Below are positions 6,002-48,961 of a DNA stretch of 64,000 nt, one piece after another. The position numbers and the translations under genes were made by a program. Origin of the DNA: Aquisphaera giovannonii (GTDB taxonomy: Bacteria; Planctomycetota; Planctomycetia; Isosphaerales; Isosphaeraceae). The notes under the pieces were generated by a model. The model did not search any database and was not told the DNA's origin. It saw only the letters and a program-made list of their open reading frames with translations. The stretch's first letter is position 1. Every line of letters begins with the position of its first letter. The stretch spans positions 868,001 to 932,000 of the forward strand of contig NZ_CP042997.1 of the NCBI RefSeq assembly GCF_008087625.1. The letters run 5' to 3'.

Positions 6002-7051
6002 TCAACGGGCCGGCCCCGAGCCCCCGCCGGCCCGGATCACCGCCGCGTCCTTCGTCGCGTCCCCGCCGCCCGACTTGGCGATCGCGGTCGCGCCCGCAGC
6101 CCCGGCCGGATTCCCCGCCTTGCCCGCCCGTCCCGCCAGCCGGCCCAGGAGCCCGCCGGGCTGGGGCCGGTCGCTCTGGCCGACCTTCTCGCCGAGCGTG
6201 CCGACGTGGTTCCGCGAGGCCCGGATGAGGATCAGCTTCTGCCTCCTCACGTCCGAGTGGGCCTCGGAGCGGGTGAAGAAGAAGCCGCCGAGGCTCCGCT
6301 CCTGCTCCGGGAAGCAGCCCACGACCACGACCTGGTCGGGGCCCAGGTCCACGGTGGCGGACAGGTCCTGGAGCGTCTCCTCCTCCTGGCCGTCGGCGAT
6401 CCTGAACTCCTGGGGCGCATACGACCCGCCGTTGGCGATCGCCTGGAACGACCTCCGGGGCGGGCCGTGGTGCAGCTCCGGCGTGAACCGCAGCGAGACC
6501 CGATCGGTCCCGTGGTGGGTCGCGGTCACGCGGAAGAAGCCGCTGGCCGACTGGTAGTCCTTCCCGTAGGGGTGCCCCTCGCGGTTCAGGAGGAGGGTGA
6601 TCTGCTCCGCGTTCTCGGCCACGCTGATGAGGGTCTGGTCGCCGTCGTCCAGGAGGAAGGTGGCCGGCTCGACCTTGTGCGGGGGCGGCGCGTTCCGGAT
6701 CGCGTCGATCGCCGGCGGGAGCTCGCCGGTGATCCGGCCGATCCGCAGCCCGTTGACCTCCAGCGCCCGGCGGGCCTCCGGGGCGACGGACTGCTCGTCG
6801 ACGGCCTTCCAGGCGGCGGCGTTCAGGGCCTCGTCCTTGAAGGGCCGGTCGAGGATCGCCACCTCGATCGCGCACTTCTTGGGCTCGATGATCTGACCCT
6901 GCTGGCCACCGCCGATCCGGCCGAACAGGTCCTGCGGGCGGAGCTGGTCCTTGTTCGAGTTGCAGCCCGCCAGCCCGATGAGGGCGCAGGCCGCCACCAG
7001 GGCGGAGGCCGAGAGGCCGGCGGCGAGCCAGTTTGGCCGCTTCGAGCACAT
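6002..7051 (-). CDS. Predicted lipoprotein of unknown function
   Basis: A 349-residue protein with a lipoprotein signal peptide: RPNW, a hydrophobic stretch at residues 9-29 and the lipobox LAGC with Cys30. The mature part contains several beta-rich segments (QITLLLNREGHPYG, GFFRVTATHHGTDRVSLRFTPELHH, DQVVVVGCFPEQERSLGGFFFT) and ends in a Gly/Ala-rich low-complexity tail from about residue 300. I do not recognise the family. The ATG at 7051 places the signal peptide at the N-terminus and has AAAGGA a short distance upstream; the long upstream extension of the frame is spacer. It lies downstream of a large spacer and shares no operon with rtcA that I can support. Confidence 0.7.
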   Translation of the reverse strand: MCSKRPNWLAAGLSASALVAACALIGLAGCNSNKDQLRPQDLFGRIGGGQQGQIIEPKKCAIEVAILDRPFKDEALNAAAWKAVDEQSVAPEARRALEVNGLRIGRITGELPPAIDAIRNAPPPHKVEPATFLLDDGDQTLISVAENAEQITLLLNREGHPYGKDYQSASGFFRVTATHHGTDRVSLRFTPELHHGPPRRSFQAIANGGSYAPQEFRIADGQEEETLQDLSATVDLGPDQVVVVGCFPEQERSLGGFFFTRSEAHSDVRRQKLILIRASRNHVGTLGEKVGQSDRPQPGGLLGRLAGRAGKAGNPAGAAGATAIAKSGGGDATKDAAVIRAGGGSGPAR

Positions 7052-8574
7052 GGGGCGGAGTCCTTTCCGCGGCAACTCGAAGGGACGCGATCCCGTCACG
7101 TCCGTGGATGATCGATCGAGGGCGGATGTGCGGGGGAGTCTAGGCGAGCCCCGCCCCCTCGTCAACGCGAACCCGGACGCCCGTGACCCGATCCGGACGA
7201 CCATGTGTGCGCTCCCCCGGAGGCGTTCCCCGGCCAACTCCCCACACCCGGCCCGGCGGCCCCGCCTCGGCGTGGGTCTGGTTGTCGGCACGACCTGTTT
7301 CGAAGGCGTCGCCGCAAGTTCCCATGAGGGAACGCCTTGACCGCGGTTTTCGAACGGCTTCGCCACCCCCACGCCGCAGCCTTTTCGCCCTTCGCTCGCG
7401 TGCCGGAACCCGGTCAGGCCCCGGGCCGGAATGACCTCGGCGGATACCTCATCTGGGCGGCTGGGGCAGGGCGCAGCGATGCCCAGGACCCCCGGACTCG
7501 GCACCGGGGCATGGCCGCGCCCTGCCCCAGCCACCCACGACCTTGCTCGCCGGACAACTCGATGGTCCTGTTCCTGCCCATCCGGTGGACGGGGCCGCAC
7601 GACATGCAACACCCGGCACGACGCGGGACCGCATTTCCTGCGTCGCGTGGGTCCACTCGTTGCGCGGGTTGTCGCGGCGTTCTCGACGCTTCTTGATGAT
7701 TCATTAGGACTTGCGGCCAGAAAAAAATGGGTTCGTCGCCGGCCCCGCGAACAAGAACCGCCGGCTCGCATGCCCCGCGCGGGCCGGCGGCGACCTGCTC
7801 GCCACACCAACGATCGAATTGCCAAAGAAGTCTCGCGCCTTTCGGTCGCCGGATTCCCGAGACACCCCCCGATACGCTCCACGCGACGGCGTCCCGAATT
7901 TCGGGGGCGGAAGGAAGAAGGATCGAGGCCCGCTTCCTTCGCCTTCAGCAATCGGCGATCCTCACCCGGACGAGCATGGCGGACCGCGTCCCCTCTATAA
8001 GGGACTAGCGCCATGTTTGCCCGTTTTCGCGGTGCGACCGGCGGATTTCTCGGATTTCGTAGGGATGGAACCGTGGCTCGCGGCGTGATCCGGCCGATCC
8101 GCTATCCTTGCCGCTTGCTTCGAGGCGACTCATCGGAGGACGCCGACGAGCTCCGGAGGACCTCGCGGGCACTCGACGCAGACGACCGGGATTCATCGCC
8201 TTCGAGCCGAGCGCGCGAAAGCGATCCGGGCCAAAGCCATCCGGGTCATCAAGCCATCCGGGTCAGGTCATGTTGTTGGTGCCCTTGACGGAAGGCCGGG
8301 TCAGAATTCTTGTTGTGAGTATGTCCAGACGACTGCGCATCCGGTATCCAATGGCGATCAACCGCGTCATGTGGCGCGGCGCGGCCGGTTGGCGATTGAC
8401 GTGGCAGGGCGGCGGGCCGGACCGTTTGGGAGGTGCTGGCCTTCGTCCGGATGAGCAACCAACGGCATCGGGTGGTCCGCACGCCGCGGCCCAACCTGGC
8501 CACCGGGATACGACACCTCTTCTCGACGCACGCGACCGGGCCCGGCCGGCGCGGCGTCTCTGCGCGGGGATCTC
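7052..8574. other. 1.5 kb spacer without a supportable gene
   Basis: Several short open frames cross this region on both strands, but none has a recognisable motif, a good ribosome binding site or planctomycete-like codon choice. GC is lower and more uneven than in the neighbours, especially from about 7,690 to 8,360. Visible structures are a small perfect hairpin GTTCCC-ATGA-GGGAAC (7318-7333), a 74-base palindrome (listed separately) and a direct repeat of AAGCCATCCGGGTCA near 8,231-8,265. It could hold a decayed gene or mobile element, but nothing identifies one. Confidence 0.5.
7459..7532. repeat. 74-base imperfect palindrome
   Basis: The arms GGCTGGGGCAGGGCGC (7459-7474) and GCGCCCTGCCCCAGCC (7517-7532) are perfect inverse complements of 16 bases. 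Inside, ATGCCC (7479-7484) pairs with GGGCAT (7507-7512), and CCG/CGG stretches allow a longer imperfect stem. It lies in a spacer and could be a REP-type element, a transposon remnant or a bidirectional terminator. It differs in sequence from the REP hairpins found elsewhere in the window. Confidence 0.6.
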
Positions 8575-10380
8575 ATGTCCGATGATGCCGCATCCGCGGG
8601 GCCTCTGGTCCGCGGCCTCGATCTCGTGCGCGAGATCGCCGAGCTGGCCCGCAAGCACGACCGGTTCCTCTGGGGCGAGCCCGAGACGGGGGACGAGGAC
8701 GGGCCCGCGGAGTTGACCGAGCGGGACCTTGCGGAGGTCAGGGCCGCCTTGGAGGGCTTCCAGGAATCCCTCCGGATGGCCTGGGAGTCCGATCGTCGCC
8801 CGCTCCGCGCCTGGCGCCGGGGAAGTGGCGGGCCGCCGGAGAGGTTGGTGCCGCTGGAACACGCGGGGTCGGCGTGGCCCCCGCCCTGCCGCGCCGACGA
8901 GGCGGTCCAGCTCCTGCTCGACTTCGACGCGAAGCTCCGCGCCCTGGTCCCCGCGGTGGACGACGACGAGCCGTTCGATGTGGACGACTTCCTGGAGGGC
9001 TGGGACACGGACGCGGAGGCCGTGGCGAAGGCCGCCCCCGACCCGGAGGACCTGGCGAGGCTGAAGGCCGAGGTGCTCGAGGAGTTTCGGGCCGCCCCCG
9101 AGGGGCCGCCGGCCGGCCCGGCCTCGCCCCCGGCGCCCGGCGTCGATCCCGAGGCGGCGGGCGCCGCGGTCCTGGGCCTGCTGGAGGCGATCGCGGGGCT
9201 CCTCGAGCTCGCCCGTGGGGCGGGCCTCGCCGCGGAGCCCTCGTCGGTCCTCCTCGCCAAGGGGCGGCTCCGGGCCGCCTTCCCGGCGGCGATCGATGCG
9301 CCCGTCATGGCCGCCCGCCTGCTGCATCGAAACCGGGGTGGCGTTCGCATGAAATGGTATAAAGGTATGGCGACAAGTTGCTCGGATGCCGTGCTGGACG
9401 TCGGCGCCGACCTGATGGATCGCCTCTTCGACGCGACGGCGGCCGAGGGCGAGGACGGGCCGGGCGGCTGGAGGCAGGACCTCTCGGAGTGGAAGGAGAC
9501 CGTCGAGTGGATGGGGGAGCAGCTCGACGAGGTGCCGCCCGGCTTCGGCGACCTCGCGGACCGCGTCCGCGACGAGCACGGCCGGTCCGGGTCGATCGAG
9601 CTCCCCCTGGCGTATACGTATGTGTTCGAGGATCAGGACGAGCCGGTGGTCGTGAATCGGCGTGCCGAGTCGATCGCGCTGCTCGACCAGTTCCGGATCC
9701 CGACCGAGGCCGCCCCCGGGGCGAAGCTCATGGCCGGCGAGTCGGCCGTCGAGCAGATCTTCTACGTCCCGGGCGAGGCGCCCCATCGGTTCCTGACGAA
9801 GATCGGGGGGCTTCCCTACCGGCTGGCGCACGAGGCATGGCCCGCGGGCCGGGACGGCCGGCCCCTGACCTTCGTGGCCCAATTCTGCGTCCCCGCGGCG
9901 TACGACCTGTTCCCGGACGGGCTGTACGAGGAGGTGCTGCTGATCTTCGCCCGATCGGAGTCGGACCTCCTCTCGGTCAATCCCTACCAGGACGGGCTGC
10001 ACTTCGAGTGGTGGCCGCTGGGGGCCTCGCCCGCGAAGCTCGTCCAGGCCGGGGACGTCCCCAAGACCGGCTGGCGGATCAAGCCGTACTTCGGGGTCCA
10101 CCTGCGGACCGGCGATCTTCATCTGGTCGGCCCGTCCCCCCACGTCAAGATCGGAGGCTGGCCCGACTTCCTCCAGGGCGGACCGCGCCGCGGCTACTAC
10201 GGCGGCGAATTCCTCCTCCAGCTGGGCCGGCCCGGCCCCGTGCCGCCGGGCCTCGACCGCTGGGCCCACCAGGCCGATCCCGCCGCCAAGGGCCGCGAGA
10301 TCACCATCGGCGACGACGGCTATCTCTACCTCTTCATGCGTGCGGACCAGACGATCGACGCCTACCCCGAGTGTTACTGA
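8575..10380 (+). CDS. DUF1963/YwqG-like protein with a long N-terminal extension
   Basis: A 601-residue protein with no signal peptide. The C-terminal half has features of the DUF1963 (YwqG) family: FLTKIGGLPYRL, WPAGRDGRPLTFVAQF, a LPDGLYEEVLLIF-like strand and the end GDDGYLYLF. DUF1963 proteins are of uncertain function and often lie near immunity or self-defence genes. The N-terminal half (to about residue 255) is acidic and Ala-rich with no recognisable domain. A short patch at about 9,330-9,375, encoding HRNRGGVRMKWYKGMATSC, has lower GC than its surroundings and may mark an old junction. An overlapping minus-strand frame of similar length is treated as a shadow because only the plus frame shows a family motif. 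The gene is followed by a strong hairpin. Confidence 0.65.
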   Translation: MSDDAASAGPLVRGLDLVREIAELARKHDRFLWGEPETGDEDGPAELTERDLAEVRAALEGFQESLRMAWESDRRPLRAWRRGSGGPPERLVPLEHAGSAWPPPCRADEAVQLLLDFDAKLRALVPAVDDDEPFDVDDFLEGWDTDAEAVAKAAPDPEDLARLKAEVLEEFRAAPEGPPAGPASPPAPGVDPEAAGAAVLGLLEAIAGLLELARGAGLAAEPSSVLLAKGRLRAAFPAAIDAPVMAARLLHRNRGGVRMKWYKGMATSCSDAVLDVGADLMDRLFDATAAEGEDGPGGWRQDLSEWKETVEWMGEQLDEVPPGFGDLADRVRDEHGRSGSIELPLAYTYVFEDQDEPVVVNRRAESIALLDQFRIPTEAAPGAKLMAGESAVEQIFYVPGEAPHRFLTKIGGLPYRLAHEAWPAGRDGRPLTFVAQFCVPAAYDLFPDGLYEEVLLIFARSESDLLSVNPYQDGLHFEWWPLGASPAKLVQAGDVPKTGWRIKPYFGVHLRTGDLHLVGPSPHVKIGGWPDFLQGGPRRGYYGGEFLLQLGRPGPVPPGLDRWAHQADPAAKGREITIGDDGYLYLFMRADQTIDAYPECY

Positions 10381-10431
10381 GTGTCCGTCCGATGAGCCGC
10401 TCGGAGGACGCAGGGCGGGCGGGACCCGGCA

Positions 10432-10464
10432 CCGCAAGCCCCGGCACGGCCAGGGGACTTGCGG
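10432..10464 (+). terminator. Strong hairpin after the DUF1963-like gene
   Basis: CCGCAAGCCCC (10432-10442) pairs with GGGG-A-CTTGCGG (10453-10464), an 11-pair stem with one bulged A and a ten-base loop, about 50 bases after the stop. The following GGGTTTCACCC has only a short T run, so it is a candidate transcription terminator rather than a textbook one. Confidence 0.5.
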
Positions 10465-10571
10465 GTTTCACCCGCCGTACGAGAGCGACGATCCGGGCCC
10501 TCGAGGCGGACCCAGAGCCCGGTCCGGAGTGGGGCGGGCGCCAGCCGAAATGTCGCGGGCCCCTTCCCGCG

Positions 10572-11192
10572 TCAGCCCTCGCGCGCGGCCTCGCCGGGCG
10601 CGGCCGGCGGGGATCCGCCGGGGCCCTTTGAGGCGGTCGGCAGGATGGCGCCGAGCGGCAGGCGGAAGCCGGGGATGACGTGCTCGCCCGGCAGGTCCTC
10701 ATCCTCGCGGACGCGACTCATCGAGCCGTCGGAGCGGTAGACCATCGCGGAGCGCGAGTCGGGGTAGATCACCCAGGCGAGCGGGATGTTCGCCGCCCGG
10801 TAGTCGTCGAGCTTCTCCTCGAGCTCCGACGCCAGGTCGCGAGGCGAGACCACTTCGACGGCGAGGTCCGGTGGGACGATCGAGAACCCCTCGGGGAGCT
10901 CGCCGCCGGGCGGCCGGTCCTTCCGCACGAAGGAGATGTCCGGCCGTCGCACGCGGCCCGCGGCATGCGAGAAGCAGCGGTAGTCGGTGGTCCCGGGCAG
11001 GACCCAGCCGAGGTCGTGGGCCTCGCAGAAGGCCAGGGGCGCGGCGCCCAGCTTCAACTCGACCCAGCCCGATCGCGCCCCCGCGGCCTTCTCCACCAGC
11101 CGCCCGCGGATCGGCTCGTGGCGCTCGCCGTCCGGCATCGACAGCAAGTCCTCGGTCGCGTATGCCGCCGTCTTCCTGATCGCGACCGCCAT
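10572..11192 (-). CDS. Uma2-family (DUF820) putative restriction-endonuclease-like protein
   Basis: A 206-residue protein of the Uma2/DUF820 family, which has a PD-(D/E)XK nuclease-like fold and is expanded in planctomycetes and cyanobacteria. Visible signatures are YATEDLLSMPDGERHEPIRG at the N-terminus, RRPDISFV with the presumed catalytic Asp, PPDLAVEVVSPRD with the acidic residue, then EEKLDDYRAANIPLAWVIYP. No restriction or methylation partner is adjacent, so the physiological role is open. The C-terminal 25 residues are Pro/Gly/Ala-rich and appear dispensable. It is convergent with the DUF1963-like gene. Confidence 0.85.
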   Translation of the reverse strand: MAVAIRKTAAYATEDLLSMPDGERHEPIRGRLVEKAAGARSGWVELKLGAAPLAFCEAHDLGWVLPGTTDYRCFSHAAGRVRRPDISFVRKDRPPGGELPEGFSIVPPDLAVEVVSPRDLASELEEKLDDYRAANIPLAWVIYPDSRSAMVYRSDGSMSRVREDEDLPGEHVIPGFRLPLGAILPTASKGPGGSPPAAPGEAAREG

Positions 11193-11533
11193 GCTCCTGG
11201 CACAGCCCCCGGGGCCCGTTCCTTCACGAGAGATCCGCGAAGATCATTCTAGCGACGGAGGCCCGTCCCGGCGAGGTGGGGTAGCCTGGGCAGCGTCAGG
11301 GGCGTATGCCGGGCGGCCAACCTGGGGCGGCTGGGGGAGCGGGCGGGGGCGGGGCCCCTCGCGCCGCGGTTGTGTTCGCCGCCCGGAGGCAAGACGGCTT
11401 GAGAACGGCGCGCGGGCATTGTATAGGAGGGTGTCGGCGACGGCGAGAGTCGCCGGGAGTATGACGGGCGGGTGCCGGGCATTATGCCCCGTCGATCCGC
11501 GGCTCGCGAGGCACAACAAGGAAGGTCACCGCC
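11193..11533. other. Spacer between divergent genes
   Basis: 341 bases separate the Uma2 gene (leftward) from the histidine kinase (rightward). Both promoters should be here, but I cannot pick a convincing -35/-10 pair. A 91-codon minus-strand frame (11244-11519) lacks any motif and is not called. The only clear signal is the ribosome binding site of the kinase at 11518-11525. Confidence 0.5.
11518..11525 (+). promoter_or_regulatory. Ribosome binding site selecting a TTG start
   Basis: AAGGAAGG lies eight bases before the TTG at 11534 and 14 bases before the next in-frame ATG at 11540. It favours TTG as the initiation codon of the hybrid histidine kinase. Confidence 0.55.
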
Positions 11534-41320: not shown

Positions 41321-42394
41321 TCAATCGCCCTGCGATTCCGCCGGGACCACCTGCAAGGTCAGGATCTCCGGGCGGCGGAGGATCCGCAGCGGGGTCCTCA
41401 CGCCGACGCGTTCCTCGGTCAGGAGCCGGTGCAGGTCGTCGATGCCGCCGACGGGCTGGCCGTCGAGGCCGAGGATGACGTCGCCCTCCTCCAGGCCGGC
41501 GGCGTCGGCGGGGCCGCCGGGCTCGACGCCCTGGACGAGGACGCCGCCGCGGCCCGCTCCGTTGCGACGCCCGCCGGCGGCCGGGCCCGGGACGTGGACG
41601 GTCTGCACGGCGATGCCGATCCGAGCGCGGCGGACGCGGCCGTCGCGGATGAGGCGGCCGGCGACGAACTTCGCGGTGTTGATGGCGATCGCGAAGCAGA
41701 TGCCCTGCGCCGGGAGGATCATCGCCGTGTTCACGCCGATCACCCGCCCGCGCGAGTCCACGAGCGGACCGCCGGAGTTCCCGGGGTTGAGCGCCGCGTC
41801 CGTCTGGAGGACGTCGTCGATCAGCCGCCCGGATCCCGCCCGCAGCGTCCGGCCCAGCGCGCTGACCACGCCCGCCGTCACCGAGCTCTGGAACCCGTAG
41901 GGGTGGCCGATCGCCAGGGCGATCTGCCCGACGCGGACGGCCTTGGAATCGCCGAGCACCGCGGGCACGAGCTCCCCGGCGTGCACGCGGATCACGGCGA
42001 GGTCCGTCGCCGGGTCGTCGCCGATCAGGTCCGCCGGGTGCGACGTCCCGTCGTGGAGCGTCACCTCGATCGGGCTCGCCCCGTGGACCACGTGGCTGTT
42101 CGTGAGGATATAGCCGCTCGACGTGAAGACGAACCCGGAGCCCGTCCCGCCGCCCGAGCCGCCCCGCCCCCTGCCCGCGAACCGGGCCTCGATGTGGACG
42201 ACCGACGGGCTGACCTTCTCCGCCGCGCCGACGACGGCCCTCGAATACGAGTCGAGCAGGGCGAGGTCGTCCGCCTCCGCCCTGTCCGCGGCCTCGGCCG
42301 CTTGCGGGGCCGGCTCGGCCGCGAGGTTCCCCGCCGTGCCATCGCCCAGGAATTCGAACTCCGCGTCGCTGTCCGTCCAGGCCGTCGCGATCAT
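41321..42394 (-). CDS. HtrA/DegP-like serine protease with one PDZ domain
   Basis: A 357-residue S1C protease. The triad is His101 in LTNSHVVHG, Asp131 in ATDLAVIRV and Ser207 in NPGNSGGPLVDSRG. A single PDZ domain follows (VLVQGVEPGGPADAAGLEEGD, about 275-345). The start at 42394 is chosen because GGGGAGGGG lies four bases before its ATG; upstream ATGs lack this. No signal peptide or membrane segment is present: the N-terminus is acidic (DSDAEFEFLGDG), so the protein may be cytoplasmic, unlike most HtrA proteases. It lies downstream of two sigma-HlyD genes on the same strand, 101 bases after the second, and may be cotranscribed with them. Confidence 0.9.
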   Translation of the reverse strand: MIATAWTDSDAEFEFLGDGTAGNLAAEPAPQAAEAADRAEADDLALLDSYSRAVVGAAEKVSPSVVHIEARFAGRGRGGSGGGTGSGFVFTSSGYILTNSHVVHGASPIEVTLHDGTSHPADLIGDDPATDLAVIRVHAGELVPAVLGDSKAVRVGQIALAIGHPYGFQSSVTAGVVSALGRTLRAGSGRLIDDVLQTDAALNPGNSGGPLVDSRGRVIGVNTAMILPAQGICFAIAINTAKFVAGRLIRDGRVRRARIGIAVQTVHVPGPAAGGRRNGAGRGGVLVQGVEPGGPADAAGLEEGDVILGLDGQPVGGIDDLHRLLTEERVGVRTPLRILRRPEILTLQVVPAESQGD

Positions 42395-42495: not shown

Positions 42496-44865
42496 TCATC
42501 GGGCCGGCCGGGCTCGCTTGCCTCGTGCGGACTTGGGTCGCGCGGGAGGCGTCGGGGCTCCGAGCCGCACGGACCGCCGCTGCTCGTCGCTCAGCAAATC
42601 GAAGGGCTTCAGGACGACCTCCTCGCCGTCGCGGAGCCCGGCCTTGACCTCCACGCGGATGCTCGACGGGTCGGCATCGGCGGTCGAGTCTCCCAGCTCG
42701 GCCGTCCGGAGCTCGATGCTGCCGTCGGGCCGCTTCACCGCGAGGTGGTCCTTCGCCTCGTAGGTGAGCACGGCCTCGGCCGGGATGGCGAGGGCGTCTT
42801 CCCGCTCGGCGACGAGGACCTCCACGTCGGCCGTCATCCCGGGGACGAGCGGGGCCTGGGTATCCGCGAGGCGGATCCTCGTCGTGTACACCTTCGCCGA
42901 TTGGAAGAATGAGCCCGGGTCGGGCAGCGGGGCCACCTCGACGACCAGGCCCGCGAATCGCCTGTCGGGGAACGCATCGATCCGGACCTGGACCTTCTGC
43001 CCCTCCCGGACGCGATCGATCATCGCCTCGTCGAGCTTGGCGACCACCTGCAGGGGGCCCTCGGCGTCGACGATCGAGAGGAGCTTCTGACGCTCGCGGA
43101 CGGTGGCCCCTTCCTCGATCTGGGCGGTGGGGCTGCCGGACGCCCTCATCGGGTCGTTGGCGTAGACCACGCGCCCGTCCCGGGGGGCGAGCAGCTTGCA
43201 GTGGGTGATCTGGCTCTCGAGCTTGGCCCGCCTGGAGTCCTCCAGCGCGGCCTTCTCCGCCGCGGCCTTCCGGGCGGCCTGGGCCTTCAGGACCTCGGCT
43301 TCCAGGGCAATCGTGGTCTTCCGGGCTTCGAACTGTTCGAGCACCGCGAGCCGGCCCTTGGCGGCCTCGATCGCGGCCCCGGCGCGTTGCAGGTCCACCT
43401 CGGCCCGGTCGCGGGCGTCTTCCAGGATGAAACGGGCCGCGACGTCCGCGGGTGTGGGCGTGTCCGCCTTCCCGGAGGTGGCGCGTTGCATCGCCTCCAG
43501 CCCCTTCCTCGCCCGCTCGATCCGCCTGGCGACGGCCTCTCGCTCCGCGGCCGCGAGGTCGACCTCGCGGCGGCGCTGGTCCCTGTCCCGGGGGAGGATC
43601 CCCTGCTGGTACTCCCGGAGCGCCAGCTCGGCGGTCTGGAGGACGCGGTCGGCGAGATCGACGGCCTTCTGCGCGTCCTGGATCGCGATCCGCTGGTTGA
43701 CGAGCTGATCGCGGAGGGTCGCCGAGTCCAGCTCCGCGACCGGGTCTCCCTTCTTCACGCGTGTCCCCTCGGGCGCGAGGGAGATGATCGTGGTCTTCCC
43801 TTCCACCCCGGAGTAGACGTCGGCCCGGTCGATGGCCTCCAACCTGCCGCGTCCGCGGACGGTCGCGCGGAACGGACCCGGCTGCGCCCGGTAGGTGGCG
43901 AGCTCAACATCGGGCCCCGGCCTCAGGACGACCTTCTCCTCGGCGGCCGGGGGCCGGGCCGACGGCGGATCGGAGGGCTTCGCGGTCGTCGCCTGCCCGG
44001 AGACGAGGCGTGCGCCGGAGACGGTCGCGGCGGCGGCGAGGATCGCGCCACCGACCTTCCACCAGGAGGATCGTGCCATGGCCGTGAGGACTCCCTGTGC
44101 GACGAGGCCGGCGGAGGTGCCGGCGAGTGTCTGAGTCGCGGCGAGCCGCACCGCGGCGGCGGTCGTGGCGCGGATGAGGGCGTCGGGGACCTCGGGGTCG
44201 AGCCCGAGGCGGATCGCCGGGACCAAGGCGGCCGTGGGCGACACGCCGCGGCGGGAGAGCCGCCCCTTCAGCCGTTCGCGGGCCCGGCTCAGCCGGCTCT
44301 TGACCGTGCCGACGGGCCATCCGGCGTGGCGGGCGGCCTGCTCGTGCGTCCGGCCCTCCAGGTCGCAGAGCACGACCGGGATGCGGTAGCGGTCCGGCAG
44401 GCGGCCGATCTCCTCGTGGAGGATGCGGCCGAGGTCGTCGAGGCCCCCGTCGTCGCCGCGGTCCACGGTCGCCTCCGCCGGGCGGGCGCCGGCCGCCTCG
44501 TGCCTCCGCCGCCTCGCCGCGGCCCCGCGGGCGCACGAGGCCGTCCGCAACGCGACCTGGTGCAGCCACGGGCCGATCGAGTCGGCCACCCAGAGCGACC
44601 GGGCCCGCCTCACGAGGACGAGGAACGTCGCCTGGAAGGCGTCCTCCGCGTCCTGCTCGCGCGATCTCCCGAGCACGCCGCGGCAGACCCGCAGGACCAT
44701 CGGCCCGTGCCGCTCCACGATCGCGGCGAAGGCCTGCTCCGCCGCCGGGCCGCCGCGGGTGGAGAACCGCTCCAGGAGCTGGCCGTCGGTCAGCCCGGCG
44801 GCCGTGCCGTCGGCGAGCAGGCCGTCGAGCTGCCTCAGGAAACCGCGCGCCTGTCCCGTCGCCAC
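42496..44865 (-). CDS. ECF sigma factor fused to HlyD-type membrane adaptor (copy A)
   Basis: A 789-residue chimera. Residues about 45-118 are sigma region 2 ([36 protein letters not shown]) and about 145-205 are region 4 ([36 protein letters not shown]). A linker (to 268) leads to one membrane segment at about 270-288. The rest is a HlyD/membrane-fusion-protein periplasmic adaptor: lipoyl half-motifs ([20 protein letters not shown] and [12 protein letters not shown]) flanking a coiled-coil hairpin (about 400-590), then beta-barrel segments ([19 protein letters not shown]). No transport ATPase or permease is adjacent. The GTG at 44865 follows a G-rich ribosome binding site seven bases away and is shared in style with copy B. 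The sigma part could be held at the membrane until a signal or cleavage frees it; that is inference. Confidence 0.9.
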
Positions 44866-44998
44866 GGATGGACCCCCCCTGCGATCGCCCCCATCGCCCG
44901 TGTAATGTCGCGGGGGCCGCGGACGGTTCCGGGTTTCTCCAGATGGAGATTGAACCACGGAATCCAAGGAAAGGCACGGGAGGGGAGTCGATTCGGGA
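44866..44998. repeat. Short spacer with half of an ACCACGG-type repeat
   Basis: TTGAACCACGGAATCCAAGG begins near 44,949, followed by AAAGGCACGGGAGGGGAG. It resembles one arm of the inverted-repeat element at 47377-47636 but has no matching partner arm, so it looks like a partial or decayed copy. It sits between the two sigma-HlyD genes. Confidence 0.45.
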
Positions 44999-47263
44999 TC
45001 AGCGGCCGCCCTGGCCGGCCTCCGTCTCGCCGAGGAGCGATGCCGGCTGGAGGACGACCTGCTCGCCGGGCTTGAGGCCGACCTTGACCTCCACACGCGA
45101 TTCGTCGGCGTCTCCGAGAATGACCTCGCGGATCTCAACCCGACCGTCGGGCTGTTTGACGGCCAGGCGATAAGGGGTGTCCCGGCCGATCACCGCCGCG
45201 TGCGGCACGACCAGGGCGTTCGGGTGGTCGGCGACGAGGACGTCCACTTCCGCGGTCATTCCGGGGCGGAGGGACTCATCCGTGCCCTCGATGCGGATCA
45301 TCGTGGTGTAGACGTGCTTCCCCGGTGCGGTCCGCGTCTCGTCCGGCCCGTTCGGCACCCTCGTGACCGTGCCGGCGAAGCGCTTTTCGGGTAAGGCATC
45401 GACGTGGATGTCGACCTTCTGGCCCTCGGTGACGCGATGGATCGTGGGCTCGAGGAGCCGGGCGGCGACTTCCATGGGCCCTGAGACGTCGACGACCGTG
45501 AAGACATGCTGGCGTGGGCCGACGATCCGGCCCTTCTCGGGCCACGGTCCGGCGGCATGGGTGGCGTAGCTGACGTAGCCATCCAGGGGGGCCAGGAGCT
45601 TGCAATTCCGGAGCTTCGCCGCGAGCCGGGCCTGCTTCTCCTTCTCGAGCCGGAAGGCCGCCTCCTTCACCCGCTCGTTGGAGCGGGCCTTCTCGATCTC
45701 GCCTTGCAGGGCCTTGATCGTCGCGGGCCTGGTATGTTTCTCGAGCCGGTTCAGCTTGTCCTGGGCTACTTCCAGCCCCATCTTCCCGCGAAGCTCGTCC
45801 TGCCCCACCTGGTCAACACGCTCGTCCAGATCGAGCTCGGCCACGATGTCGCCGGCCGTCACCTCGTGATCCTTGCGGGCCATGATCCCTCTCAGCTTCT
45901 GGCGTGCCTGCTGCACGCGGTCGAGCCGGGCATGGGTGCTCGAGAGCCGCCCCTCGGCGAGCTTGATCTCCCCGAATGCCGCCGCCCTGTCCTGGGGATA
46001 GATGCCGCCCGTGTATTCCTCGAGGGCCACCTCGGCGACCTCGCGGGCGGTGCGGGCATTCTGGTGGGCGGCCTCGGCGGTCCTCGTGGCGACCTCCTGG
46101 TTGTTGAACTGGTCGCGGAGCGCGGAGGAGTCGAGTTCCACGACGACGTCCCCCTTCTTGACCCGCGTGCCCTCGGGTTGGAGCGAGACGACGGCGAGGG
46201 GCGAATCGACGTCGGCGGCGACCTTCGCCGGATTCGCGACGGCCACCTGGCCCCGGCCGGAGACGTTGACCCGGAAGTGGACAGGCACCGCCGGGAGAAC
46301 GGCCACCTCGGCCGGCGGCTTCGGCTGGACGCGGGCCTCGCCCCCGCCGCCCGGCCGCTGGGCCGACGCGGCCGCGGGACCCGAGGCCGCCCGGCCCGCG
46401 GCGAGTCCCGCGCCGGATACCGTCGCAGCGACGAAGAAGGCAGCCCCGGCCTTCCACCAGTTGGATCGTGACATGGCGGAGATCACCCCCTGTGCGAGGA
46501 GGCCGGCGGAGGTGCCGGCGAGTGTTCGCAGCGAGGCCGCCCGCAAGGCGGCCGCGGTCGTGGAACGGATCAGCGCGTCGGGGAGGGGGCGGTCGAGGCC
46601 CGGCGGGATCGCATGCAGGGCTGCCCCGGCCGAAGGCGAGATCCCGCGGCCGATCAGCCTGAGCCTCAATCGCTCGCGACCCCGCCTCAGGCGGCTCTTC
46701 ACGGTGCCCAGCGGCAGGCCCGCGTGACGCGCGGCCTGCTCCTGCGTCTGGCCTTCCAGGTCGCAGAGGACCACCGGGACGCGATAGTGATCCGGCAGTC
46801 GGCCGATCTCCTCGTGGAGGATGCGGGCCAGCTCGCGATGGTCCGCGTCCTCGCCATCCGCTCCGCCGCCCGCCGCCTCGGTCCGGGTCGCGAGGGCGTC
46901 CTCGTGACGCCTCCGCCTCGCCGTTGCCACGCGGGCGCCGCGGGCCGTCCGCAGGGCGACCTGGTGCAGCCACGGGCCGATCGAGTCGGCCACCCAGAGC
47001 GACCGGCCCTTCCTCGCGAGCACCAGGAACGTGGCCTGGAAGGCGTCCTCGGCGTCGTGACGGTTGCCCGCCACGGCCTCACACACCCGCAGGACCATCG
47101 CCCCGTGCCGCTCCACGATCGCCGCGAACGCGAGCTCGGCCGCCGGCCCCTCCGCGGTCGCGAACCGCTCCAGGAGCTGCCCGTCGGCCAGCCCTGCGCC
47201 GGCCCCGCCGGCCAGCAGCCCGTCGAGCTGCCACGCGACCCTTTGCTCATGCCCCGTCGCCAC
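44999..47263 (-). CDS. ECF sigma factor fused to HlyD-type membrane adaptor (copy B)
   Basis: A 754-residue tandem paralogue of copy A, with the same order: ECF region 2 ([38 protein letters not shown]), region 4 ([36 protein letters not shown]), the motif [19 protein letters not shown], a membrane segment, then a HlyD adaptor ([53 protein letters not shown]). The GTG start follows CGGGGAGG seven bases away. It lies upstream of copy A on the same strand, 133 bases apart, so the pair arose by tandem duplication and has since diverged, mainly in the adaptor. No ABC transporter partner is present. Regulation is presumably through the extracytoplasmic part; that is inference. Confidence 0.9.
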   Translation of the reverse strand: MATGHEQRVAWQLDGLLAGGAGAGLADGQLLERFATAEGPAAELAFAAIVERHGAMVLRVCEAVAGNRHDAEDAFQATFLVLARKGRSLWVADSIGPWLHQVALRTARGARVATARRRRHEDALATRTEAAGGGADGEDADHRELARILHEEIGRLPDHYRVPVVLCDLEGQTQEQAARHAGLPLGTVKSRLRRGRERLRLRLIGRGISPSAGAALHAIPPGLDRPLPDALIRSTTAAALRAASLRTLAGTSAGLLAQGVISAMSRSNWWKAGAAFFVAATVSGAGLAAGRAASGPAAASAQRPGGGGEARVQPKPPAEVAVLPAVPVHFRVNVSGRGQVAVANPAKVAADVDSPLAVVSLQPEGTRVKKGDVVVELDSSALRDQFNNQEVATRTAEAAHQNARTAREVAEVALEEYTGGIYPQDRAAAFGEIKLAEGRLSSTHARLDRVQQARQKLRGIMARKDHEVTAGDIVAELDLDERVDQVGQDELRGKMGLEVAQDKLNRLEKHTRPATIKALQGEIEKARSNERVKEAAFRLEKEKQARLAAKLRNCKLLAPLDGYVSYATHAAGPWPEKGRIVGPRQHVFTVVDVSGPMEVAARLLEPTIHRVTEGQKVDIHVDALPEKRFAGTVTRVPNGPDETRTAPGKHVYTTMIRIEGTDESLRPGMTAEVDVLVADHPNALVVPHAAVIGRDTPYRLAVKQPDGRVEIREVILGDADESRVEVKVGLKPGEQVVLQPASLLGETEAGQGGR

Positions 47264-47686
47264 GGACCACCCTCCCCGACGGGCCCATCATCCCCGCCGC
47301 AACGGTAATGGCGCGCCGGCCACGGACGGATCCACGGAACCGAGGAGAAAGGAGGCGGAATACCAAGACAAGGAGATTCAACCACGGAAAACACGGAAAG
47401 CACGGAAGGAGAGGAGAGGATTCATGGGAGATGGTGGGCCGCGGCGAGGACCGGGGCTGCACGCGGGCCACGCCGGATCGGTCCCGCCCCCCTCGAGCGA
47501 GCCCGGCCCGGCCCGTATCGCGTAAGCCTACGACTTCCTCCACGACCCGGGCCTTCCGACCGGCCCCAGCCTCGCCTCTCTACGTCCCCTCCCTCTCTCC
47601 TCCCCTTCCGTGCTTTCCGTGTTTTCCGTGGTTCAATGTCTTTGTGTTTGTCTTACGTATCTTGGGGCCTCTTTCCGTGGATGCTT
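47264..47686. repeat. Spacer with an ACCACGGAAAACACGG inverted-repeat element
   Basis: Arms of about 42 bases at 47377-47419 and 47592-47636 are inverse complements with a few mismatches, built from short units ACGGAAA / ACACGGAAAGCACGG. The intervening 170 bases contain no gene. Sequences outside the arms also show weak complementarity (AAAGGAGGCGG against CCTCTTT), so the original element may have been longer. Such elements are frequent in planctomycete spacers. ClpX ends at one side and sigma-HlyD copy B begins at the other. Confidence 0.65.
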
Positions 47687-48961
47687 TCACGCGGCGAAGA
47701 GGGAGCGCGTGCCCTTCACCACGTCGTCCGTGATCGTGTACGTCTGCCCGGGCTCGCGTTCCGGCAATTCGTACATGATGTCGAGCATGAGGCTTTCCAT
47801 GATCGAGCGGAGGGCGCGGGCGCCGGTGCCGCGGGCCTTGGCCCGGCGGGCGATCTCGCGGATGGCGTCCCCGGTGAACTCGAGCCGCGCGCCGTCGTAG
47901 TGGAAGAGCACCTGGTACTGCTTCGTGAGGGCGTCCTTGGGCTCGTTGAGGATCCGCGCGAGGTCCTCCTCCGAGAGCTGGTTCAGCGTGGCGATCACCG
48001 GGAGGCGGCCGATCAGCTCGGGGATCATGCCGTACCGTTCGAGGTCCTCGGGCGTGACCTGGGCGACCAGCTCGTTGCGCTCGAGCTCGCGGTCCTGGGT
48101 CGCCTCGTCGCCGCGGCCGAAGCCGATCATCTTGCGGCCCAGCCGCTTGCCGATGATCTCCTCGAGGTTGACGAACGTGCCGCCGCAGATGAAGAGGATG
48201 TCCTTCGTGTTGACCTGGAGGTACTGCTGCTCGGGGTGCTTGCGGCCCCCCTGGGGCGGGACGTTCGCCACCGTGCCTTCGAGGAGCTTCAGGAGGGCCT
48301 GTTGCACGCCCTCGCCGGAGACGTCCCGGGTGATGCTGACGTTCTGGCTCGTCTTGCCGATCTTGTCGATTTCGTCGATGTAGATGATGCCCTTCTCGGC
48401 GGCCGGGATGTCATAGTCGGCGGCCATGACGAGCTTGAGGATCAGGTTCTCGACGTCCTCGCCGACGTACCCGGCCTCGGTCAGCGTCGTCGCGTCGCCG
48501 ATGGCGAACGGGACGTGCAGGCGGCGGGCCAGCGTCTGGGCGAGCGCGGTCTTGCCGCAGCCGGTGGGGCCGATCAGCAGGACGTTGCTCTTGGAGACCT
48601 CGATGTCCTTCAGGAGCTCGTCCTTCACCTCGCCGCCGAGCACGCGCTTGTAGTGGTTCACCACCGCGACGGCGAGCGTGCGCTTGACGCGGTCCTGGCC
48701 GATGATGTAGTCGTCCAGGTGCGCCACGAGCTCTCGCGGCGTCGGCAGCTTCTCGAGCTTGGCGTTCTTCCGCTCGTGCTGCTCGAAGACCTCCTCGGCG
48801 AGGTCGGTGCAGTGGGCGCAGATGTGGGCGATCGGCCGGCCCGTCCCCATGGGCAGCAGCGCGCGTCCCTCGATCATCGGCCCGGCCTCGCCCGTGTTCC
48901 GGCCGCAGAAATCGCAGAGAACCGGGGCCTGCCCCGGCTTCGAGCTGTCGTCGGTCGCCAA
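47687..48961 (-). CDS. clpX: ATP-dependent Clp protease ATP-binding subunit ClpX
   Basis: A 424-residue AAA+ unfoldase that feeds substrates to ClpP. The N-terminal zinc-binding domain has CDFCGRN and CAHC. The AAA+ core shows Walker A GPTGCGKTAL, the pore loop GYVGEDVEN, Walker B IIYIDEIDKI, FICGGTFVNLEE, MIPELIGRLPVIATL and the sensor-2 region GTGARALRSIMES. The length is typical. The TTG at 48961 is preceded by GGGGGAG eight bases upstream, and no nearby ATG would retain the zinc finger. clpP and tig are not adjacent, so clpX stands alone here, with the repeat-bearing spacer downstream. Confidence 0.97.
   Translation of the reverse strand: MATDDSSKPGQAPVLCDFCGRNTGEAGPMIEGRALLPMGTGRPIAHICAHCTDLAEEVFEQHERKNAKLEKLPTPRELVAHLDDYIIGQDRVKRTLAVAVVNHYKRVLGGEVKDELLKDIEVSKSNVLLIGPTGCGKTALAQTLARRLHVPFAIGDATTLTEAGYVGEDVENLILKLVMAADYDIPAAEKGIIYIDEIDKIGKTSQNVSITRDVSGEGVQQALLKLLEGTVANVPPQGGRKHPEQQYLQVNTKDILFICGGTFVNLEEIIGKRLGRKMIGFGRGDEATQDRELERNELVAQVTPEDLERYGMIPELIGRLPVIATLNQLSEEDLARILNEPKDALTKQYQVLFHYDGARLEFTGDAIREIARRAKARGTGARALRSIMESLMLDIMYELPEREPGQTYTITDDVVKGTRSLFAA

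Follow-up and report, generated by a model that had tools for sequence, protein, structure and literature searches.

Tandem ECF sigma factor-HlyD fusions of Aquisphaera giovannonii as candidate membrane-tethered sensors

Two consecutive fusion genes and their surroundings

The window, a stretch of 64,000 nucleotides from the Aquisphaera giovannonii genome (10.5 Mb), contains two consecutive open reading frames on the minus strand, each of which joins an ECF sigma factor through a membrane segment to a HlyD/MFP adaptor. Copy B (44999-47263, minus strand) is 754 aa long and starts with GTG. Copy A (42496-44865, minus strand) is 789 aa long. The mechanical ORF list runs it out to the TTG at 45138, within copy B; alignment with copy B and the orthologs places its start, likely, at GTG 44865, in parallel to copy B ('VATG...').

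The domain order is the same in both copies: sigma2, sigma4, linker (~70 residues), one hydrophobic helix, disordered stretch and full HlyD/MFP. The sigma2-sigma4 region lies at 46640-47185 (minus strand) in copy B (residues ~27-208, including Cys61 and Cys167) and at 44236-44787 (minus strand) in copy A (residues ~27-210). It is assigned to the ECF sigma factors by Sigma70_r2, Sigma70_r4_2 and sigma70-ECF (TIGR02937), all above cut-off in A and B. The predicted membrane helix follows ~78 residues past sigma4 (minus strand 46388-46456, residues ~270-292 in B; 43993-44061, residues ~269-291 in A). This topology comes from the hydrophobicity scan, where the segment scores KD 1.53 in B and a marginal 1.45 in the weakly hydrophobic helix of A; in the structure model of copy B it is a low-confidence helix. 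The adaptor occupies 45029-46309 in copy B (residues ~319-745) and 42556-43905 in copy A (residues ~321-770), both on the minus strand. HlyD_D23 and HlyD_3 exceed the Pfam cut-offs and RND_mfp its NCBIfam cut-off in both proteins, and no anti-sigma domain is recognisable in either. The tandem chimera described by the sequence-only reading, with an ECF sigma, one membrane helix and a complete HlyD adaptor, is thus borne out in both copies by profile matches and the hydrophobic segment.

On the same strand, 101 bases past copy A, lies an HtrA-type trypsin-PDZ protease gene (41321-42394, minus strand). Its start at ATG 42394 is conserved ('MIA[AT]AWTD', common to Aquisphaera insulae). The gene may share the copy A transcript, possibly as the last gene of the operon. 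The proximity had been taken as a hint at a protease acting on the fusion. The position holds, but the link is weakened: neither a signal peptide nor a membrane helix is detectable in the A. giovannonii or the A. insulae protein, and among the fusion loci compared HtrA adjoins the fusion only in Aquisphaera. That this protease liberates the sigma by cutting the fusion on its periplasmic side, in the manner of DegS acting on RseA, would fit its strand, its distance and its retention in A. insulae. However, both proteins are predicted to be cytoplasmic from the missing export signal, and the fusions of other genera have no adjoining HtrA. A periplasmic cleavage role is therefore unlikely, and we give this route only a very small chance.

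The immediate upstream neighbour of copy B is a ClpX-type gene that shares its strand (47687-48961, minus strand), and a genome of the same genus (G001, locus L095) has this neighbour too. Two Aquisphaera-type genomes share ClpX, HtrA and a GH127 gene beside the fusions, and beyond these two no partner gene is conserved across genera among the fusion loci compared. Between ClpX and copy B there is an inverted repeat (47356-47418 / 47595-47657, 63-nt arms, 87% complementary, containing CCACGGAAAACACGGA), which resembles mobile or REP-like elements.

The adaptor domain and its distribution

HlyD/MacA adaptors normally belong to drug-efflux pumps. The closest solved structures to the adaptor of the fusions are those of MacA (E 1e-34), and the structure predicted for copy B, with a mean pLDDT of 77.7 and values mostly >90 in the adaptor, aligns with MacA over 331 residues in the span 315-744 with Z 20.9 and rmsd 4.9. 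The lipoyl (barrel-sandwich), alpha-hairpin, beta-barrel and membrane-proximal domains are all present in this model, and together with the HlyD_D23, HlyD_3 and RND_mfp matches they place the domain among the HlyD/MacA adaptors. Unlike MacA of MacAB-TolC, copy B is fused to a sigma factor, has no transporter among its scanned neighbours and carries a long alpha-hairpin (45608-46126, minus strand, residues 380-552) of two helices, ~83 residues each, with a replaced tip. In MacA and AcrA adaptors the hairpin tip docks to TolC. The stand-alone tip pattern R..WS.RM..KGYVSK is retained in 9/10 stand-alone relatives; it is replaced in A, in B and, overall, in 22 of the 25 fusion rows, with a MacA-like tip still present in a few (L105, L109, L113). 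Counts of hairpin tips by regular expression over distant HlyD proteins were too noisy and were excluded.

The HlyD part diverges faster than the sigma part. Between A and B the sigma parts are 72% identical and the HlyD parts 41%; between congeners the sigma is 79-87% identical versus 47-51% for HlyD.

The sequence-only reading had noted that no pump gene lies nearby, and we agree: no ABC, permease or other transporter gene occurs among the scanned neighbours of A and B (part of the window's genes), and no transporter neighbour is conserved across the fusion loci. A single exception was seen in G032 (L106), where 56 bases separate an ECF-HlyD fusion (8961-11324) from an upstream ABC exporter gene (6971-8905). 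The adaptor could still be a working pump part that assembles with a transporter of MacB or ABC type from another locus, with the sigma reporting on the pump or co-regulating it. The complete fold (lipoyl, barrel and proximal domains), the exporter gene of L106 and the tips retained in L105, L109 and L113 speak for such a pump; the unconserved transporter neighbour, the tip replacement in most fusions and the rapid divergence of the HlyD part speak against it, and we regard it as doubtful, though deserving some weight. Within the same genome, the closest stand-alone homolog belongs to a MacA-ABC-MacB operon, alongside ABC_tran and MacB_PCD/FtsX genes, and the fusion adaptor probably derives from an efflux operon.

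HlyD fusions of the A/B type are found in 16 of 45 Isosphaeraceae genomes (three broken by contig ends or frameshift), or in 18 if a short form, which has neither barrel nor proximal domains, is included. Tandem pairs occur also in G001 (same genus), G016, G021 and G022. Outside Isosphaeraceae no fusion was found among 398 genomes of the class (strict threshold of E 1e-72, two candidates scored per genome). This survey, proposed by the sequence-only reading, also upholds its view that the fusion is a single polypeptide: since the same open frame recurs in many genomes, a sequencing or assembly error joining two genes is ruled out. The chimera is real and conserved, and in the literature searched no ECF-HlyD fusion is described.

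In the ECF tree most of the full-length fusions group together, with a few other paralogs among them. A single origin of the HlyD fusion was considered and is disfavoured: the HlyD tree, in which long branches are present, rejects a single clade of fusions with p-AU 2.7e-5. Repeated recruitment of HlyD, or loss of the sigma part, would be possible explanations. In L101 271-2460, itself a fusion and the tandem partner of another, the HlyD is of a different, distant kind with weak similarity to copy B, which would point to more than one recruitment. The stand-alone HlyD at L116:8829-10580 has a membrane segment and a hairpin tip of the fusion type but no sigma, and is perhaps a fusion that has lost its sigma part. 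Such proteins would also suit a reading in which each gene yields two proteins, because translation also starts internally or the product is cleaved early, with the HlyD part acting alone; stand-alone HlyD relatives do exist, L116 among them. Against this, the single open frame is kept in many genomes and a helix lies between both parts, so we consider two proteins per gene extremely improbable.

The paralog family and its candidate promoters

In planctomycetes, ECF sigma factors that extend far beyond sigma4 at the C-terminus number in the dozens. Copies A and B belong to a family of ~51 paralogs in the same genome (51 aligned), built of sigma2-sigma4, one helix and a variable C-terminus, which extends the sequence-only reading by a family with varying C-termini, conservation of the chimera across Isosphaeraceae and a conserved ECF-type promoter. 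The single helix is found at ~residue 255-300 in nearly all paralogs, ~78 residues past sigma4, and the charge bias around it, averaged over family members, favours an N-in orientation. The C-terminal modules include CarboxypepD_reg, WD40/PD40, DUF1559, redoxin, HlyD and others. Hence, HlyD is one among many modules of this family. C61 and C167, one in sigma2 and one in sigma4, are at least 90% conserved across the 51 paralogs, and long extensions are family-wide, with WD40 or PD40 in some paralogs and HlyD in A and B.

The group ECF57 is described as having two conserved cysteines (sigma2, sigma4) and a C-terminal extension, often with WD40-like repeats (PMC8999054). The two near-invariant cysteines agree with ECF57, and the long extension, with WD40 modules in some same-genome paralogs, may do so as well, a likeness by description rather than by group profile or tree. 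HlyD and TolC-like modules, however, go unmentioned in the ECF57 review (PMC8999054).

A TolC-like module is found in a sister fusion. In the same-genome paralog L013 (G000:C1:8046024-8051286) a sigma of this type is fused with a TolC/OEP-like domain, as it is in the orthologs L127, L227, L228 and L230 of four other genomes. The four orthologs exceed the Pfam cut-off (E to 2e-14) and L013 falls just under it. Some homolog of the domain is present in 44 of 45 Isosphaeraceae genomes, in most cases an OEP protein that is larger and stands alone.

A conserved motif, GGAAC-N18-CATTAC, precedes the fusion genes. The candidate autoregulated ECF promoter of copy A (44902-44930, minus strand) consists of GGAAC (44930-44926), an 18-base spacer and CATTAC (44907-44902); that of copy B (47305-47333, minus strand) consists of GGATC (47333-47329), the same spacer and CATTAC (47310-47305). 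With spacers of 14-20 allowed, the strict form precedes 13/18 HlyD fusions (shuffled mean 0.02), all five TolC-type fusions as GCAAC-N18-CATTAC (shuffled mean 0.004) and 1/43 other paralogs (shuffled mean 0.04). The relaxed form with a spacer of exactly 18 is found at 16/18 HlyD fusions, where shuffles give 0.12 on average; a spacer of 15-17 or 19-21 yields 0-1 matches, and at spacer 18 it precedes 9/43 other paralogs versus 0.29 in shuffles. The pattern was derived from the same sequences that were counted, so these counts show how consistent it is and do not test it independently; the shuffles and the controls with other spacings argue against a chance origin. The motif is degenerate in the L103 and L108 fusions, and no good motif was found upstream of the short-form fusion.

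In the whole genome GSAAC-N18-CATTAY occurs at four sites: copy A, the TolC-type paralog and two positions inside genes. The strict form is thus intergenic only at copy A and the TolC-type gene, and the exact pattern reveals no wider regulon among its four genomic sites. Since the intergenic sites are confined to these two genes, the fusion sigmas likely autoregulate through the predicted GGAAC-N18-CATTAC sites. The -10 element tracks the sigma clade, with CTTTAY in 5/5 members of one starred clade and CATTAY in neighbouring ones. Such co-variation speaks for recognition by each sigma of its own promoter, although it may reflect a single change. Sites of the form GG[AT]NN-N18-CNNTA[CT], with differing middle bases, lie upstream of the same-genome paralogs L015, L016, L018, L023, L024, L029, L035, L040 and L046, hinting at paralog-specific promoters there as well. 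A search for a k-mer common to the upstream regions of all paralogs returned only GC-rich words.

We tentatively suggest, as a possibility with somewhat less than an even chance, that a self-inducing, membrane-anchored ECF branch of Isosphaeraceae recruited both a MacA-like adaptor and a TolC-like channel as sensors, with a distinguishable autoregulatory promoter for each sub-branch. If true, turning the folds of pump adaptors and channels to signalling would be an evolutionary route undescribed in the literature searched, where we also found no experimental study on the control of planctomycete ECF sigmas with C-terminal extensions. The anatomy of the proteins, the matching promoter motif and the clade-specific -10 elements together offer a testable entry to such control.

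Proposed mechanism

We suggest, as a moderately probable reading, that A and B are membrane-tethered, self-inducing one-protein sensors, in which the adaptor is the sensing or partner-binding domain and the sigma is most likely released by proteolysis. The sequence-only reading had likewise seen the HlyD domain as a sensor or anchor, and the domain probably does act in this way rather than as a pump part. In related bacteria the fusion is likewise preceded by a matching promoter that is probably self-activated, suggesting the conversion of an efflux-pump component into a sensor.

The sigma2-sigma4 part would reside in the cytoplasm, with one helix passing through the inner membrane. On the periplasmic side, the MacA-type adaptor with its altered hairpin tip would sense a signal or bind a partner. 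Some event there, such as a ligand or a change in the state of the envelope or of efflux, would free the sigma part or unmask it; regulated proteolysis is the most likely means, with a conformational route also possible. The freed sigma would then drive mainly its own promoter, GGAAC-N18-CATTAC, with positive feedback.

Proteolytic release is favoured by analogy with two known fusions. IutY (ECF243) is a membrane-anchored sigma fusion whose sigma is released by proteolysis, and SCO4117 (ECF52) is thought to be activated in the same way (PMC8999054). Like A and B, both combine sigma, membrane segment and extracytoplasmic domain in one protein. However, they carry a fused anti-sigma part, whereas A and B have no recognisable one and their outer domain is an efflux adaptor.

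Alternatively, the sigma may be active while membrane-bound, with the C-terminal part being only an anchor or docking platform and no signal-driven release. In another planctomycete, detergent-soluble fractions yielded some of the ECF sigma factors (PMC8567305), and the wide variety of C-terminal modules among the paralogs also fits a plain anchor. The conserved promoters nevertheless suggest regulated positive feedback, and IutY, the sole membrane-anchored fusion studied in detail, frees its sigma by proteolysis (PMC8999054). We hold activity at the membrane to be unlikely.

Returning to the released sensor, its proposed membrane gating of an ECF sigma resembles the DegS-RseP-RseA-RpoE envelope stress pathway, and the A. 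giovannonii genome encodes M50 proteases. In contrast to that pathway, A and B have no separate anti-sigma factor, and the HtrA beside copy A lacks an export signal.
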